This document shows, piece by piece, positions 1,440 to 25,934 of a stretch of DNA of 57,409 nt (positions are counted from its first letter, which is position 1; the number at the start of each line of letters is the position of its first letter). The position numbers and the translations under genes are program-made. Under the pieces are notes generated by a model, which saw only the letters and a list, made by a program, of their open reading frames with translations, did not search any database and had not been told where the DNA came from. This DNA comes from Prolixibacteraceae bacterium (lineage in GTDB: Bacteria; Bacteroidota; Bacteroidia; Bacteroidales; Prolixibacteraceae): assembly GCA_947475715.1 (NCBI GenBank), contig CANJNY010000017.1:1-57409 (forward strand), written 5' to 3'.

Positions 1440-2627
1440 CTATTCCACATACAAAACTAATCCTTTGAGGTATTCTCCTTCAGGATGATAAATATTTATC
1501 GGGTGATCACCGGGCTGCGAAAGCTGATGTAATATCCTTACATTTCGCTTTGAAATCGCAGCAGCAGAAAACACCGCTTCACGAAAGTTTTGTTTTGTTA
1601 CAACCTGTGAACAGGAGAAAGTAAACAAAACGCCACCGGGTTTGATTTGTTGAAAAGCCCTGGTATTTAATCTTTTATAACCCTGCAATGCCTGCCCGAG
1701 CACATTCTTGTGTTTGGCAAATGCAGGGGGATCAAGAACTATCAGATCATATTTGTTGTTAATCTCCTTCATGAAATCAAAAGCATCCGCAATAAATGCT
1801 TCATGGCGTTTATCGCCAGGGAAGTTAAGTTCTACATTTTCATTGGTAAGCTCAATGGCTTTTGCTGAGGAGTCGACCGAGTGAACCAGATTGGCTCCAC
1901 CCTGCATGGCCGAAAATGAAAATCCTCCGGTATAGCAGAACATGTTAAGCACATCTTTTCCAAAGGCATATTCGCTCAATAGTTTGCGGTTTTCGCGTTG
2001 ATCGACGAAGAAGCCGGTTTTCTGTCCCTCCTCCCAGTCAACCAAAAAACGGTTGCCATCCTCCATAACCTCCCGTGTAGTCTGGATGCCTGATAAATAT
2101 CCGTCAGCCGGTTCTATCTGAGCTTTAAATGGGAGTGTCTTGGCACTTTTATCGTAAACTGCATTAAGTCGATCGCCCAGAACGATCTTCATCGCTTCGG
2201 CTAAAAGATCCCGAATCAGCCACATTCCTACCGTGTGTGCCTGCAATACAGCGGTTCCGTTATAGAAATCGACAATAAGCCCTGGCATTCCATCACCTTC
2301 GCCGTGAATGAGCCTGAAAACATTGGTCTCCTTTCGGGAGGTTAGCCCAATTTTTTGACGCAGGTTAAAGGCTGAATTAAATTTATTGCACCAGAAAGTT
2401 AAATCCGGATCAACATCCTCGAATGAGAATATCCTAACCGCAATTGAGCCAATCGCACTGTGACCAATGCCTAAAAACCGGTCATCGCTGGCATGAACAA
2501 TGACAATATCTCCCTCTTCAACACCACCTTCGATACGGTCGATAGCTCCTGAGAAGATCCATGGATGAAAACGGAGGATCGACTCTTCCTTCCCTTTTTT
2601 TAAAACAACTTTACTATATTTCGACAT
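1440..2627 (-). CDS. rlmI: Class I SAM-dependent rRNA methyltransferase, RlmI-like
   Basis: Probable 23S rRNA cytosine-C5 methyltransferase. The 395-residue length matches E. coli RlmI. An N-terminal PUA RNA-binding domain (about 1-80) is followed by an EEHEE-type linker and a Rossmann methyltransferase domain with SAM motif I NMFCYTGGFSFSA (about 229-241). The catalytic-loop motif VLDPPAFAK follows near 295. A cysteine in the FSCSQ segment near 345 is placed like the nucleophile of m5C enzymes. It sits 37 bp after the 3'-5' exonuclease gene and 30 bp before the DEAD helicase gene, suggesting cotranscription. The exact modified nucleotide is inferred from family, not seen. Confidence 0.9.
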   Translation of the reverse strand: MSKYSKVVLKKGKEESILRFHPWIFSGAIDRIEGGVEEGDIVIVHASDDRFLGIGHSAIGSIAVRIFSFEDVDPDLTFWCNKFNSAFNLRQKIGLTSRKETNVFRLIHGEGDGMPGLIVDFYNGTAVLQAHTVGMWLIRDLLAEAMKIVLGDRLNAVYDKSAKTLPFKAQIEPADGYLSGIQTTREVMEDGNRFLVDWEEGQKTGFFVDQRENRKLLSEYAFGKDVLNMFCYTGGFSFSAMQGGANLVHSVDSSAKAIELTNENVELNFPGDKRHEAFIADAFDFMKEINNKYDLIVLDPPAFAKHKNVLGQALQGYKRLNTRAFQQIKPGGVLFTFSCSQVVTKQNFREAVFSAAAISKRNVRILHQLSQPGDHPINIYHPEGEYLKGLVLYVE

Positions 2628-2664
2628 AATCCAAATAAATTCTTTTTAGATTAGTTTTAAAAAA

Positions 2665-3288
2665 CTAATCTTCCTGCACACTTTCTGCTATTTCCGATTC
2701 CATGATTACCGGCTCAATAGGTGTGATTAATAATTGTTTATAAATATCGCAGGCAACCCAGGCATCGGTGGCTCCATAGATTAACTGTTGTTCGGTTAAT
2801 TCCTCTGCATCCCAGTTTGTAAGTCGCTGTGATTTTGATATTCTGAATCCCAACACAATGGCCGAGAGCTTTTTGAGACTGAAGCTTTCGATTCCGTAAT
2901 CTTTTACAAGATCTTGGAGTTCAATAAATCCCATTGGTTTGAATGGTACAACGCGCTGTAATATTTTAATATCATCCCTGATTGCTGCTCCAATTTTCAA
3001 TATTTTGGATGAGGCCAGAATCTTTACAACTCCCGGTGGCAACCCAATTTTATTTATTCTAAATAGAAATGCCTGATCTGATGTTGCTAATTGAAGTAAT
3101 GATACCGGGAAAACCTGACCTTTTTTAAATGCTGGCCTGGTTTCTGTATCAAATCCGATTATAGACTGGTTGTTCAGGTATTTTAATGCTTTATCGAGAT
3201 CTTCTGGCTGTTCGATTACATGAATTACCCCTTCAAATGAAGCGAGTGGAAATTCAGCTAATTCGTCGTTGGAAATAGTTTTCCTCAT
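2665..3288 (-). CDS. 3'-5' exonuclease, DEDDy (DnaQ/RNase D fold)
   Basis: Single-domain nuclease of 207 residues. The Exo I motif is GFDTETRP (D47 and E49), the Exo II aspartate is in AAIRDDIKIL (D105 or D106) and the Exo III motif is YGATDAW (Y171, D175). This is the complete DEDDy set for two-metal-ion hydrolysis of single-stranded DNA or RNA ends. It has no HRDC domain, so it is shorter than RNase D and resembles the stand-alone exonuclease domain of WRN-type proteins. It lies between DUF5063 and the rRNA methyltransferase on the same strand, with RecQ further upstream. A role in RNA or DNA end processing is inferred; the substrate cannot be read from sequence. Confidence 0.9.
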   Translation of the reverse strand: MRKTISNDELAEFPLASFEGVIHVIEQPEDLDKALKYLNNQSIIGFDTETRPAFKKGQVFPVSLLQLATSDQAFLFRINKIGLPPGVVKILASSKILKIGAAIRDDIKILQRVVPFKPMGFIELQDLVKDYGIESFSLKKLSAIVLGFRISKSQRLTNWDAEELTEQQLIYGATDAWVACDIYKQLLITPIEPVIMESEIAESVQED

Positions 3289-3361: not shown

Positions 3362-3919
3362 TTATTCAGCCGGTTGTTCCGTTTGATCAAGATCGGTTTC
3401 TCCATAGACCAGATTATGAAGAGCCCGAAGCCCGTTTACCAGGCGCTGCCCCCAGTATTGTTCGAAATTATTTTTGCACTCCCAAAGAGCATCATTCATA
3501 ACTTCAAGTGTTCCAATTCGATAAGCGAGGATGAAATCCTTCAGATCCTGATAGATATCGGTAATGTTTTCTGAAATACTAGCCTCAATCGGTTCTGCAC
3601 TATATTGCATTGACGCATCAAAAACTTCATGATAAAGATCAAATTGGCCAAACTTTTCTTCCAGTTTAAGCCGAATGAAGTTGTAATCCTCTTCGCCTAC
3701 AAATTTTTCCGGCAGATCATCTGACATTTCAATATCCGGAACTGGCAGTAAAACAGCTTTTAGGTAGAGTAGCGGAAATAATTTTTGTACACGGATAATA
3801 AAACTCTTTCGCTGAAACTGATCAACAGCCTCAATAAAAGAACAATACTCATTGGCAACTGTGGCAAATTCGATCACGTTTTTCGAATACACCACCTCTG
3901 AAAATGGTTCTTTACTCAT
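3362..3919 (-). CDS. DUF5063 domain-containing protein
   Basis: A Bacteroidota protein of unknown function, 185 residues from the chosen start. The frame can be extended to a TTG at 3943, but the ATG at 3919 (MSKEPFSEVV) sits just before the conserved YSKNVIEF segment that usually opens these proteins, so I prefer it. It is predicted soluble, mostly helical and acidic, with no signal peptide or membrane segment. It lies between recQ (73 bp upstream) and the 3'-5' exonuclease on the same strand. Linkage of this family with an exonuclease and an RlmI-like enzyme recurs in the phylum as far as I recall, so a nucleic-acid-related role is a reasonable guess only. Confidence 0.8.
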   Translation of the reverse strand: MSKEPFSEVVYSKNVIEFATVANEYCSFIEAVDQFQRKSFIIRVQKLFPLLYLKAVLLPVPDIEMSDDLPEKFVGEEDYNFIRLKLEEKFGQFDLYHEVFDASMQYSAEPIEASISENITDIYQDLKDFILAYRIGTLEVMNDALWECKNNFEQYWGQRLVNGLRALHNLVYGETDLDQTEQPAE

Positions 3920-23001: not shown

Positions 23002-23007
23002 CTGGAA

Positions 23008-23039
23008 AGAGCTCACTCCTGCAAGAGCTCACTCCTGCA
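23008..23039. repeat. Two perfect 16-bp tandem copies after recG
   Basis: AGAGCTCACTCCTGCA at 23008-23023 is repeated exactly at 23024-23039, starting 7 bp after the recG stop codon. It may be a slippage product or part of a variable tandem repeat. Confidence 0.8.
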
Positions 23040-23300
23040 TGGCCTCACGATTGGATGACCGTGCTGAAAGTTACCACCAATGCAAGGGGAGATGGGGAGA
23101 AGGAAAGAGGTTGCAACCTGTCGATTTTAGAACCCGACATTTTGACTTCGTGCCGTCTTGGCGGGTTAAAGTCGTCCATTCGAATGGTCCGTAAAGTTGC
23201 AAATTCCGGTATTGATATTTTGTTACTAATTATAATGACAGATTGTTTTTTTCTTAAAACAAATAACCTACTTTTGCGCCGCAAACCAATATCATTTAAA
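23040..23300. other. Intergenic stretch with palindrome and possible promoter, no gene accepted
   Basis: Open frames of 79-95 codons occur on both strands but look unlike proteins. The segment has a perfect 12-bp palindrome CCATTCGAATGG (23176-23187). Eleven of its surrounding bases (23172-23182) are repeated inverted at 23301-23311, in the following leader. Confidence 0.45.
23243..23276 (+). promoter_or_regulatory. Putative promoter of the MgtE-like/Nramp-like pair
   Basis: The -7 box TACTTTTG (23269-23276) matches TAnnTTTG. A TTG with following T-run starts at 23243, about 23 bp upstream, slightly longer than consensus. Transcription would begin near 23283, leaving a leader of about 120 nt. 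Confidence 0.45.
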
Positions 23301-23404
23301 CGAATGGACGAAGGGCCTGCGGAAAATATTTTATTAACCTGATATCGCAGGATCGTCTCCTTTGAGTCCTTCCTTGTAATGTCACAAAAGCAAGGAGGTA
23401 ATCA
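23301..23404 (+). promoter_or_regulatory. Structured mRNA leader that can hide the ribosome binding site
   Basis: GACGA (23307-23311) pairs with TCGTC (23353-23357), and CCTGCG (23316-23321) pairs with CGCAGG (23346-23351), forming one long arm. TCCTTG (23371-23376) pairs with CAAGGA (23391-23396), burying the Shine-Dalgarno AAGGAGG (23392-23398) seven bases before the ATG. A second CTCCTT (23357-23362) could pair with the same AAGGAG, allowing alternative folds. A perfect Shine-Dalgarno is rare in this window. I do not recognise a known riboswitch consensus. Confidence 0.55.
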
Positions 23405-24673
23405 ATGACATCCATTACCACATTTTATTTAAGCCGTATCATCGGGAAGAAGATTCTGGATCTTAATGGTATATACCTTGGTACTGTAAAAGATCTTCTG
23501 GTCGATCCGGATCCTTCAAATTATCCTACGGGGCATCCTGTTGTTAAAGGGATTAAAACCAAATATAAAAATCAAATATCTTTTTATTCATTTGAAAATT
23601 TTCACGTTGAAAAGGTAAATGCCAAGCTTACTGTTTTTTGTGATCAGCTTGTCGAATTACCAAAGGATGAAATTAATACCAGCATGTATCTGGCTGAAGC
23701 GGTGCTCGACAATCAAATTGTCGATCTCAATGGCCGTAAGTTGGTGCGCGTTAATGATGTCCGGTTAGTCACCATCTCAAGCGGTACCTTTGCCGTAGCT
23801 GTAGATATTGGAATTGAGGGATTGCTTCGCAGAATCGGAATTGTAAAGCCATTGAAATATGTCGTGGGTCTGTTGGGAGGTACAATTCCTGCTAAATTTA
23901 TATTGTGGGAAGATGTCGAAACGATAGATTTCTCTAATCTAAATATTAAACTCTCAAAAAGTTATGCCAAGCTTCAAACCCTCCATCCCTCTGACTTAGC
24001 TGATATTATTGAAGATCTTGGCCGCAAGGCGAGTGCAGAGGTATTTTCAGCACTTGATGAGGAGAAGGCTGCAGATGTTATGGAGGAGCTAGACACCGAG
24101 ATGCAGGTGCATATCCTTGAGAGCCTTTCCATCGAAAAAGCGGCAGATGTGTTGGATAAAATGCCATCTGATGAGGTCGCCGATATTCTGGATGCTCTGG
24201 AAAATGACAAAGCGGAATTGCTGCTTAATGAAATGGAGAAGGATACTTCTCAGTATGTGAGAGACTTACTTGTCTACCCTGATCATACTGTGGGAAGTAT
24301 TATGTCCTCTGAAGTGATGTCCTTTAACCGGAAAACAACAGTTGAAGAGGTGCTGAGAGAATTGAGGGATAAGAAGCCGGAATTTGAGACGCTTTATAAC
24401 CTGTTTGTAACCGATGATAATGAAGTACTCTTAGCCACATTCTCAATCCGGGATGTGGTAATTTCATCTCCCGATGTTCAAATTGAACAAATCATGAAGC
24501 CCTCACCGGTACATTTGCGTGATTATCAAAAAATTAATGAAGTTGCAGAAATTGTTTCAAAATATAATTTATTGGCAATACCTGTTGTGGATAAGAAAAA
24601 TGTACTCAAAGGGATGGTTGTTATTGATGATGTTATTGAAGACTTAATTAAAAAACGTAGAACCAATAAATAG
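23405..24673 (+). CDS. Soluble MgtE N-domain/CBS protein with PRC-barrel-like start
   Basis: 422 residues without any membrane helix. Residues about 8-40 (RIIGKKILDLNGIYLGTVKD) and 100-175 look like PRC-barrel segments. Residues 190-290 are the MgtE_N superhelix (LHPSDLADIIEDLG, then repeated EKAADVxxxM units). Residues 298-415 are a pair of CBS domains. This is the Mg2+-sensing cytosolic half of an MgtE channel without its transmembrane half. The next gene, 10 bp on, is an Nramp-like transporter. A role as a cytosolic Mg2+ or nucleotide sensor gating that transporter is inferred from this pairing. Translation is probably controlled by the structured leader upstream. Confidence 0.85.
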   Translation: MTSITTFYLSRIIGKKILDLNGIYLGTVKDLLVDPDPSNYPTGHPVVKGIKTKYKNQISFYSFENFHVEKVNAKLTVFCDQLVELPKDEINTSMYLAEAVLDNQIVDLNGRKLVRVNDVRLVTISSGTFAVAVDIGIEGLLRRIGIVKPLKYVVGLLGGTIPAKFILWEDVETIDFSNLNIKLSKSYAKLQTLHPSDLADIIEDLGRKASAEVFSALDEEKAADVMEELDTEMQVHILESLSIEKAADVLDKMPSDEVADILDALENDKAELLLNEMEKDTSQYVRDLLVYPDHTVGSIMSSEVMSFNRKTTVEEVLRELRDKKPEFETLYNLFVTDDNEVLLATFSIRDVVISSPDVQIEQIMKPSPVHLRDYQKINEVAEIVSKYNLLAIPVVDKKNVLKGMVVIDDVIEDLIKKRRTNK

Positions 24674-24683
24674 TGGTCTGGTA

Positions 24684-25934
24684 ATGTTTAAAAATAAAAA
24701 ATCATTTTTTCAAAGACTTGGATTATTTCTGGCAATTCTCGGACCCGGAATAATTACCGGTAGTGTGGATAATGATGCAGGGGGAATTACAACTTATTCT
24801 GTTGCTGCTGCAGTTTATGGTTATAATCTGATCTGGACACTCATCCCATCATTTATTGTTCTTGTGGTTATTCAGGAGATGAATGCCCGCATGGGTATTG
24901 TTACTGGGAAAGGACTTGCTGACCTGATTCGTGAAAATGCCGGGGTTAAGATTACCTTCTTTATATTCATCGGATTATTAATTGCCGATATTGGGAATAC
25001 AACCACTGAATTTGCCGGAGTGGCCGGAAGTATGGAAGTTTTTGGAGTCAGTAAATATATCTCCGTGCCCATTGTCGGGTTTTTAGTATGGTTTCTGGTT
25101 GTAAAAGGGACCTATAAAATTGCAGAACGCATTTTTCTCCTTTTTAGCCTCTCCCTGTTGATGTATGTCGTTTCTGCAATCATGGGTAAACCACACTGGG
25201 GAGAAATCGGTCAGGCAATTATTCACCCGCAAATGGAAATGAGTGCCCAAAGTATTTCAATGATTATTGGAATTATAGGAACAACAATTGCCCCCTGGAT
25301 GCAGTTTTATATGCAATCCTCTGTCATTGAGAAGGGTTTGAAAATGAAAAATTTCAGGTATTCCCTCATTGACATTGTCGTGGGATGCGTTGCAACTGTT
25401 GTTGTGGCTTTCTTTATCATGGTTGCCTGTGCCTCTACGCTACATGCAAATGGAATTCAGATTAATGAAGCCAAAGATGCAGCTTTAGCCTTAAAACCTT
25501 TGGCAGGAGCTTTTGCTTCACAGGTTTTTGCATTCGGTCTTTTTATCGCTTCCATATTCTCTGCTACAATATTGCCCTTAGCGACTGCTTTTTATGTCTG
25601 TGAGGCGTTCGGTTTTGAGGCGGGAATAGATAAAAAATGGGATGAGGCCAAGGAATTCTATGTCCTTTATACTGGAATATTAATTATTGGTGCAGCAATT
25701 ATCCTGATTCCCAATGCCCCCCTTATTTCGATCTCACTTTGGACACAGGTGATCAACGGAATGCTCTTACCCGTCGTGCTGGTTTGTATGATTCTGCTTG
25801 TAAATAACAAGAAAATCATGGGTAAATATGTCAATAAACTGGCTAATAACCTTATTGGATGGGGAGCTGTGATCGTGCTGATTATTTTATCGCTGATTCT
25901 TCTGTTGATGCCTCTGTTTGGCCATGGAAATTAA
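24684..25934 (+). CDS. Nramp-like divalent metal transporter with non-canonical metal site
   Basis: 416-residue inner-membrane protein with about eleven helices of the SLC11/Nramp type. The first-helix motif, normally DPGN, reads DNDA (29-32) in TGSVDNDAGGI. The sixth-helix motif, normally MPH, reads APW (203-205) in GTTIAPWMQFY. The lost methionine is the residue linked with preference for transition metals over Mg2+ and Ca2+ in classical Nramps, so Mg2+ transport is plausible, as in Nramp-related magnesium transporters. It follows the MgtE-like sensor gene by 10 bp in the same operon. It converges on tatD-like, stop codons 4 bp apart. Fold sure; substrate inferred. Confidence 0.88.
   Translation: MFKNKKSFFQRLGLFLAILGPGIITGSVDNDAGGITTYSVAAAVYGYNLIWTLIPSFIVLVVIQEMNARMGIVTGKGLADLIRENAGVKITFFIFIGLLIADIGNTTTEFAGVAGSMEVFGVSKYISVPIVGFLVWFLVVKGTYKIAERIFLLFSLSLLMYVVSAIMGKPHWGEIGQAIIHPQMEMSAQSISMIIGIIGTTIAPWMQFYMQSSVIEKGLKMKNFRYSLIDIVVGCVATVVVAFFIMVACASTLHANGIQINEAKDAALALKPLAGAFASQVFAFGLFIASIFSATILPLATAFYVCEAFGFEAGIDKKWDEAKEFYVLYTGILIIGAAIILIPNAPLISISLWTQVINGMLLPVVLVCMILLVNNKKIMGKYVNKLANNLIGWGAVIVLIILSLILLLMPLFGHGN

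Follow-up and report, generated by a model that had tools for sequence, protein, structure and literature searches.

Here, we analysed a 57,409-nucleotide (nt) stretch of DNA (the window) from contig CANJNY010000017.1 of a Prolixibacteraceae bacterium of the order Bacteroidales, in which a gene for a soluble MgtE-like protein (the sensor gene) and a gene for an Nramp-type transporter (nrmT) lie behind a structured leader. This operon probably serves Mg2+ uptake under feedback at two levels, namely, a translational attenuator built on an upstream open reading frame (uORF) and a sensor protein acting on the transporter, which is of the Nramp-related Mg2+ transporter (NRMT) type. On balance, we also lean towards the wider view that the Bacteroidales have a Mg2+ regulon of their own, with an M-[DE]-[DE]-x-P peptide, nascent on the ribosome, as the would-be Mg2+ sensor. 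Acting via translational attenuators, it would control three unrelated importers, NRMT with its soluble MgtE-type subunit, CorA and MgtE, as well as a candidate outer-membrane porin. The computational analysis established a conserved uORF, a covarying hairpin and pairing of the Shine-Dalgarno sequence, placed the leader before genes of three families of Mg2+ transporters, and identified the NRMT signature in the transporter and retained Mg2+ ligands in the sensor.

The leader lies between recG and the sensor gene and contains, in this order, a promoter-like element, a 12-codon uORF and a Shine-Dalgarno sequence. The first of these, TACTTTTG (23269..23276, + strand), fits TAnnTTTG, which we take to be the consensus of the Bacteroidetes -7 promoter element. 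The uORF MDEGPAENILLT (23304..23342, +), which ends in TGA, is conserved in the leaders of relatives, and the Shine-Dalgarno sequence of the sensor gene, CAAGGAGG, occupies 23391..23398 (+; region 4 of the leader). Comparison of 74 leaders (the window and 73 loci) revealed a uORF starting with ATG-GAN in 69; codon 2 is fixed by this search pattern and is not a free observation. A TAnnTTT[GA] site was present 25–30 nt upstream of the uORF ATG in 60 of these 69 leaders. Codon 3 was acidic in 65/69 and codon 5 encoded proline in 64/69, and the full pattern M-[DE]-[DE]-x-P was found in 60/69; MDEGPA (20 leaders), MDDGPA (12) and MDDDPA (12) were the most frequent starts. Variation fell mostly on the third positions of codons 2-5, entropy peaking at the third positions of codons 3–5 (1.2–1.6 bits), and codon 4 was also variable at its second position (1.17 bits). 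The five leaders lacking a uORF were those of three Verrucomicrobia/Akkermansiaceae metagenome-assembled genomes and of loci L064 and L070. No published description of such a leader was found in a literature search whose coverage left out most subscription papers. By eye, we also observed a short tandem direct repeat, aagagctcactcctgca twice, right after recG (23007-23039).

Downstream of the uORF start, two hairpins compete for the same stretch of RNA. Region 2 (23339..23352, +) forms the 5' arm of hairpin 2:3 and includes the uORF stop codon, and the 3' arm of this hairpin (23372..23385, +) overlaps region 3 (23369..23377, +), the anti-Shine-Dalgarno. The initial annotation had proposed that the leader can hide a strong Shine-Dalgarno sequence; this was borne out, since the predicted fold has 23390–23398 base-paired to 23369–23377, and what had been missed was the conserved acidic peptide that the leader encodes and shares with CorA and MgtE genes. 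Support across relatives was assessed by counts on the named structures and by a swapped-arm test, in which each leader's own arms are compared with arms taken from other leaders (34 non-redundant leaders, 10,000 permutations); both were used in place of RNAalifold. For hairpin 2:3, own arms reached -14.4 kcal/mol compared to -10.4 kcal/mol for swapped arms (z -8.1, 0/10,000 permutations), and covariation was 0.326 versus 0.230 in shuffled alignments (0/500) and at most 0.155 when the structure was slid. Pairing 3:4 gave a swapped-arm z of -6.0, with weaker covariation (0.234 versus 0.185). The uORF stop codon starts within alignment columns 54–70 in 53 of 69 leaders (earlier in 10, later in 6), and the 5' arm of 2:3 occupies columns 56–69. 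Modelled accessibility of the Shine-Dalgarno sequence averaged 0.28 with the ribosome early on the uORF versus 0.08 with the ribosome at the stop codon, being higher in the early state in 36 leaders, equal in 31 and lower in 2. Shuffling of region 2 reduced the early accessibility to 0.10, native exceeding shuffled sequence in 56/69. Mutually exclusive hairpins, one of which hides the ribosome-binding site (RBS), thus hold over the alignment. An M-box or other known riboswitch was considered and rejected, since Rfam searches at gathering scores gave no match in the window and 10 other loci; a lax search of the leader returned a single weak match, to Yfr19 on the opposite strand (E 4.9).

The distribution of the leader was investigated using a covariance model trained on nrmT leaders alone (R1). 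In the window's genome, R1 identified one site (E 3.5e-12; next E 4.7), and among 296 genomes of the phylum, searched with stricter filters, the window's own genome was the sole match. In 295 genomes of the order, 52 matches were obtained at the searched cutoff of E≤0.1, 43 of them adjoining genes of the nrmT, sensor, CorA, MgtE, OprB or Nramp type, and 41 at E≤0.01, a cutoff chosen afterwards. Among these 41, 23 were followed by nrmT on the same contig, 10 by CorA (nine identified with Pfam, G391 from its position), 3 by MgtE (identified with Pfam; that of G481 is cut by the contig end) and 2 by OprB-type porins (Pfam); in another 3, a sensor gene stood alone behind the leader, recognised by its sequence in G458 and with Pfam in G315 and G510. 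Seen from the transporter, 23 of the 25 genomes with nrmT had a leader match upstream on the same contig, and G458 carries leader and sensor gene on another contig. The 11 matches with E values of 0.01–0.1 included one before MgtE (G385) and one near or before a second Nramp (G550); the remaining 9 looked like chance.

Leaders of genes other than nrmT begin with MDEGP, MDDGP, MDEDP, MDEVP and similar peptides, and those of CorA and MgtE keep the MDEGP-like start while the RNA downstream is different. Competing hairpins of their own, unrelated in sequence, were found at L148, L154, L155, L158, L159, L162 and L167 (z -3.4 to -6.0, from 100 shuffles per locus) and were weaker or absent at L160 (-2.7), L149 (-1.2), L157 (-0.8), L152 (0.2) and L146 (0.8); the gene start is uncertain in L147, L150, L153 and L161. 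The CorA genes of G541, G555 and G443 begin only ~260 nt past the uORF start. This spacing is that noted at L147, L150 and L153, where a leader match and short open reading frames (ORFs) stand before CorA, perhaps as a two-step leader. At L148, the leader (2794-2897, minus strand) adjoins an OprB-family porin ORF (1291-2796), with a second Nramp beside it, and at L157 an OprB-family porin ORF (1729-3111, minus strand) lies behind the same uORF leader; the OprB-type porin is a candidate outer-membrane Mg2+ porin. In addition, L045 has, on its minus strand (around position 3446 of the reverse complement) and not far from an nrmT operon, a gene that resembles CorA in sequence and is preceded by a uORF of its own, MDDHPAEIKNLN.

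As controls, we looked for the uORF upstream of other genes. The strict form preceded 0 of 343 other mechanically called ORFs of ≥200 amino acids (aa), taken from the named loci and the window; the raw count had been 13/356, comprising 11 sensor genes missed by the filter, one CorA (L045) and one nrmT (L073), which were removed. The 30 best-scoring CorA genes gave no strict uORF and 4 flagged by a looser rule, and 60 further CorA genes among the matches listed (frames up to 335 aa; two regions shortened by contig ends, four CorA genes known from R1 excluded) gave 11 lax and 4 strict uORFs. Of the 30 best MgtE matches, 4 had a strict uORF upstream, and a further 35 had none; these counts exclude fragmentary and sub-cutoff matches and also G409, which R1 had already identified. 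In the window's genome, no strict uORF precedes CorA, and no leader was seen by eye before the second Nramp. A sequence-pattern search returned 17 matches in 15/295 genomes, compared to 13 for a reversed-pattern control, and missed the window itself. Genes of the nrmT-sensor or CorA-like kind followed 7 of these 17 matches, those of G497 and G533 being assigned to CorA from sequence likeness alone, and we set this search aside as weak evidence by itself.

The transporter ORF (24684..25934, +) matches the Nramp family PF01566 in a Pfam search (E 1.1e-95). Among solved structures, its best relative was chain 7qia (E 2.4e-109), followed by a Mn2+-type MntH (2.1e-25). Entry 7qjj, which has the same chain sequence as 7qia, was deposited by the EleNRMT paper (PMC8806188). 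EleNRMT, a Mg2+ transporter, is thus the closest solved relative of the window's transporter. The initial annotation had read DNDA in place of the classical DPGN motif, which the alignment corrects to D31-A32-G33-G34 (DAGG); its reading of APW for MPH is confirmed, and the soft Met ligand is gone. The NRMT signature combines a DxxG motif in helix 1 with TxxA/T in helix 6 (PMC8806188), and both parts are present as D31-A-G-G34 and T200-T-I-A203 (within TTIAPW), near-invariant in an alignment of 80 sequences. The helix-6b histidines are replaced by W205 and by M210 (facing Asn in EleNRMT) or Q211 (facing His in MntH), neither site having His. Alignment of the metal site with classical and Mg-type Nramps thus places the protein with the latter: by its signature it is an NRMT, and Mg2+ transport is predicted. 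A second Nramp, with the classical DPGN motif, is encoded in the same genome on contig C53.

The sensor ORF (23405..24673, +) encodes a putative Mg2+ sensor subunit, a soluble protein with PRC-barrel, MgtE_N and CBS parts. Pfam searches detected a PRC domain at aa 5–36 (E 9.5e-06), MgtE_N at aa 193–293 (E 2.1e-23) and CBS (E 3.6e-14). Residues ~1–183 are beta-rich in a structure model, in agreement with an N-terminal PRC-barrel part; the predicted template modelling score (pTM) was 0.45, and domain placement from the model was left unused. The channel domain PF01769 was not among the Pfam domains of the protein and had no match in the window's genome (G000), the NCBIfam mgtE model scored 162 bits, under its cutoff of 232.75, and no 19-residue segment exceeded a Kyte-Doolittle value of 1.6 (maximum 1.51). 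The earlier description of an MgtE homologue with only the N-domain and CBS domains and no membrane part therefore stands as to the missing channel and has to be extended by the PRC-barrel part. MgtE cytosolic domains were the best solved relatives of the sensor both by sequence and by fold. Mapping of the Mg2+ ligands through alignment to solved MgtE, with residue roles from PMC5882242, indicated that E59 (D224 in the sensor), D91 (D256), D95 (D260) and D247 (D409) are kept, as, by our count, is D250 (E412); D226 is lost (N388), and the plug-helix ligands are absent, falling past the aligned part. Among 35 sensors, D224, D260 and D409 are invariant and D256 is conserved at 90% or more. Most of the mapped ligands of the MgtE N and CBS domains are thus retained.

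Both ORFs lie on the + strand with a spacing of 10 bp, as first noted, and this pairing is conserved: in the 80 named-genome loci (the best 80 kept from a search with the transporter), a sensor match lay upstream of the transporter in 77, including partial matches at contig edges (L007, L025 and L031) and L075, so that gene order is not random across relatives. Leader, sensor gene and nrmT all occur together at L019, from Bacteroides luti. In the three other loci, the contig starts at the transporter (L039), the leader stands directly before nrmT with no sensor gene between (L073), or neither sensor nor such a uORF is present (L083). G456 has its leader 16 bases before nrmT and a uORF identical to that of L073, and the two may be one case, perhaps the same species. 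Since the leader sits directly before nrmT in L073/G456, the sensor is not obligatory for the arrangement. Conversely, no nrmT relative at E≤1e-50 was found in G315 and G510, which possess both the leader and the sensor gene; a single higher-scoring Nramp lies elsewhere in each of these genomes. On contigs labelled Akkermansiaceae/Verrucomicrobia (L014, L018 and L023), we observed close sensor-nrmT pairs without the uORF leader, the transporter being 88-89% identical; these may reflect transfer or binning error. Most members of the NrmT group adjoin a gene for a homologue of the MgtE N-terminal domain, and cytoplasmic feedback by this fragment was suggested (Shin et al. 2014, PMC4072509). In the same study, C. 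acetobutylicum NrmT functioned without the fragment, and the A. capsulatum pair was probably a Mn2+ transporter to which fragment co-expression brought no gain. The pair in the window therefore belongs to a published arrangement. The idea of a separate-subunit Mg2+ system holds in that a soluble MgtE-type sensor stands beside a Mg-type Nramp, in conserved order, under a leader that can hide the Shine-Dalgarno sequence; as a novelty it does not hold, being already in print (PMC4072509).

The following mechanism would connect these elements. Ribosomes would begin on the uORF (M-D-E-G-P…) and, at low Mg2+, be destabilised by its acidic/proline N terminus and abort in the first codons. Region 2, left free, would then pair with region 3, opening the Shine-Dalgarno sequence for synthesis of sensor and transporter. 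When Mg2+ is sufficient, a ribosome at the stop codon within region 2 would mask that region, and region 3 would close the Shine-Dalgarno sequence. At the protein level, the sensor would bind cytosolic Mg2+ and restrain NRMT. Intrinsic ribosome destabilisation was reportedly described by Chadani et al., and by analogy with mgtQ and mgtL/corL the uORF may report Mg2+ via ribosome stability. We infer uORF translation, ribosome abortion and gating by the sensor from this architecture, and Mg2+ as the signal because the regulated genes are Mg2+ transporters.

Several observations weigh against this mechanism. The peptide is not uniform: four leaders read MEEGSS, without proline, and the acidic codon 3 is missing in four. 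Synonymous sites are constrained at codon 2 (23307-23309; GAC in 60/65 versus 27% usage) and codon 6 (23319-23321; GCG in 51/52 versus 8%), with usage taken from the sensor and transporter genes and counts that are not independent, the leaders being related; a pure peptide sensor does not require such constraint, which would allow for a component at the RNA or codon level. No Shine-Dalgarno sequence precedes the window's uORF, one of the 25 nrmT loci (G363) is without the leader, and the leader is patchy, most CorA and MgtE upstream regions lacking a strict uORF. As to structure, stem 1:2, visible in the window's predicted fold, showed no co-variation and a swapped-arm z of 0.0 in the non-redundant set (-1.3 in all 69 leaders) and was dropped; among the same non-redundant leaders, the control pairs 1:3 and 2:4 gave z -2.3 and -0.8, respectively. 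Double changes at 12/14 pairs of 2:3 were within the shuffle range (71/500), the other four measures being beyond the shuffles, and RNAalifold on a MAFFT alignment recovered 2 pairs only. A real weakness is that the window's own copy shows no equilibrium switch: accessibility was 0.003 in the early state, 0.001 at the stop and 0.003 with region 2 shuffled. With values near 0 in both states, the mechanism would need kinetic, co-transcriptional folding.

Some of these points would suit a riboswitch or protein-binding RNA that responds directly to Mg2+ or another ligand, with the ATGGACGA… stretch as an untranslated RNA motif: constraint at synonymous positions in codons 2 and 6 would fit such a motif, and sequestration of the Shine-Dalgarno sequence resembles translational riboswitches. 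We consider this unlikely, given that third positions vary at codons 3-5 with acidic and proline identity mostly retained, that CorA and MgtE leaders keep the peptide start before different RNA, that the Rfam searches gave nothing beyond the weak Yfr19 match and that the RNAalifold consensus fold is limited to those 2 pairs. Proline at codon 5 raises another possibility, namely, that the uORF is an attenuator sensing codon starvation (Asp or Pro charging, or EF-P status) and stands before ion transporters by happenstance; Salmonella mgtM and mgtP do respond to ATP and charged tRNA-Pro (PMC8092293). The proline codon is single as a rule, and behind all 41 matches at E≤0.01 stand genes for a Mg2+ transporter of one of three families, for the sensor or for an OprB porin, which makes this explanation very improbable.

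Alternatively, Mn2+ or Fe2+ might be the main substrate of the module, as appears to be the case for the A. capsulatum pair, whose NrmT fully rescued a Mn2+ defect and a Mg2+ defect only in low millimolar Mg2+ (PMC4072509). This appears quite unlikely here, in view of the DxxG-TxxA signature, the loss of the soft Met ligand, EleNRMT as the closest solved relative, the leader shared with CorA and MgtE genes and the separate classical DPGN Nramp of the genome. We thus favour the Mg2+-responsive uORF attenuator. If this is true, destabilisation of ribosomes by acidic nascent chains would be a Mg2+ gauge far beyond the enterobacteria, for whose genes control by acidic or proline-rich uORFs has been worked out (PMC8092293, PMC11552253). 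A conserved peptide start before NRMT, CorA and MgtE genes in another phylum would point to a more general physiological gauge, repeatedly evolved or recruited. The leader would further direct attention to new candidate Mg2+ genes, such as the OprB-type porin, and provide relatives of gut Bacteroides with a regulatory handle; in the sensor, the Mg2+ ligands retained and the plug helix missing would indicate residues relevant to gating in trans.

Compared to known systems, the protein pair shares transporter signature, neighbouring gene and speculation on feedback with the published combination of NrmT/NRMT and an MgtE-like fragment (PMC4072509, PMC8806188). The M-box-regulated NrmT loci of that literature lie mostly in Clostridia and Deltaproteobacteria, whereas the present genes have no M-box and a probable uORF attenuator. 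The PRC-barrel part of the sensor may be a further difference. The sensor resembles the MgtE channel in its N and CBS domains and most gating Mg2+ ligands and differs in lacking the channel domain and plug-helix ligands and in the PRC-barrel part. The leader is closest to Salmonella mgtQ, an 8-codon ORF whose acidic codons destabilise ribosomes, with the result that stem 2:3 frees the mgtB RBS (PMC8092293). Both have a short uORF with early acidic residues and hide the RBS of a Mg2+ transporter gene in 3:4; in mgtQ, stems 1:2 and 3:4 are exclusive with 2:3, and here the opposition of 2:3 and 3:4 is alike, whereas 1:2 is unsupported. The present leader also differs in its phylum, in its M-[DE]-[DE]-x-P start, in being common to NRMT, CorA and MgtE genes, in the missing Shine-Dalgarno sequence before the window's uORF and in being an operon leader rather than intergenic. 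E. coli/Salmonella mgtL and corL likewise have uORFs that are read inefficiently at low Mg2+, giving more transporter (with acidic/Pro residues in mgtL); they act via Rho-dependent transcription termination (PMC11552253), in contrast to the translational architecture seen here. By analogy with these systems, the leader would be a new form of Mg2+ attenuator of the acidic-uORF type, with a presumably translated uORF and a presumed Mg2+ response, in another phylum and before three transporter families.

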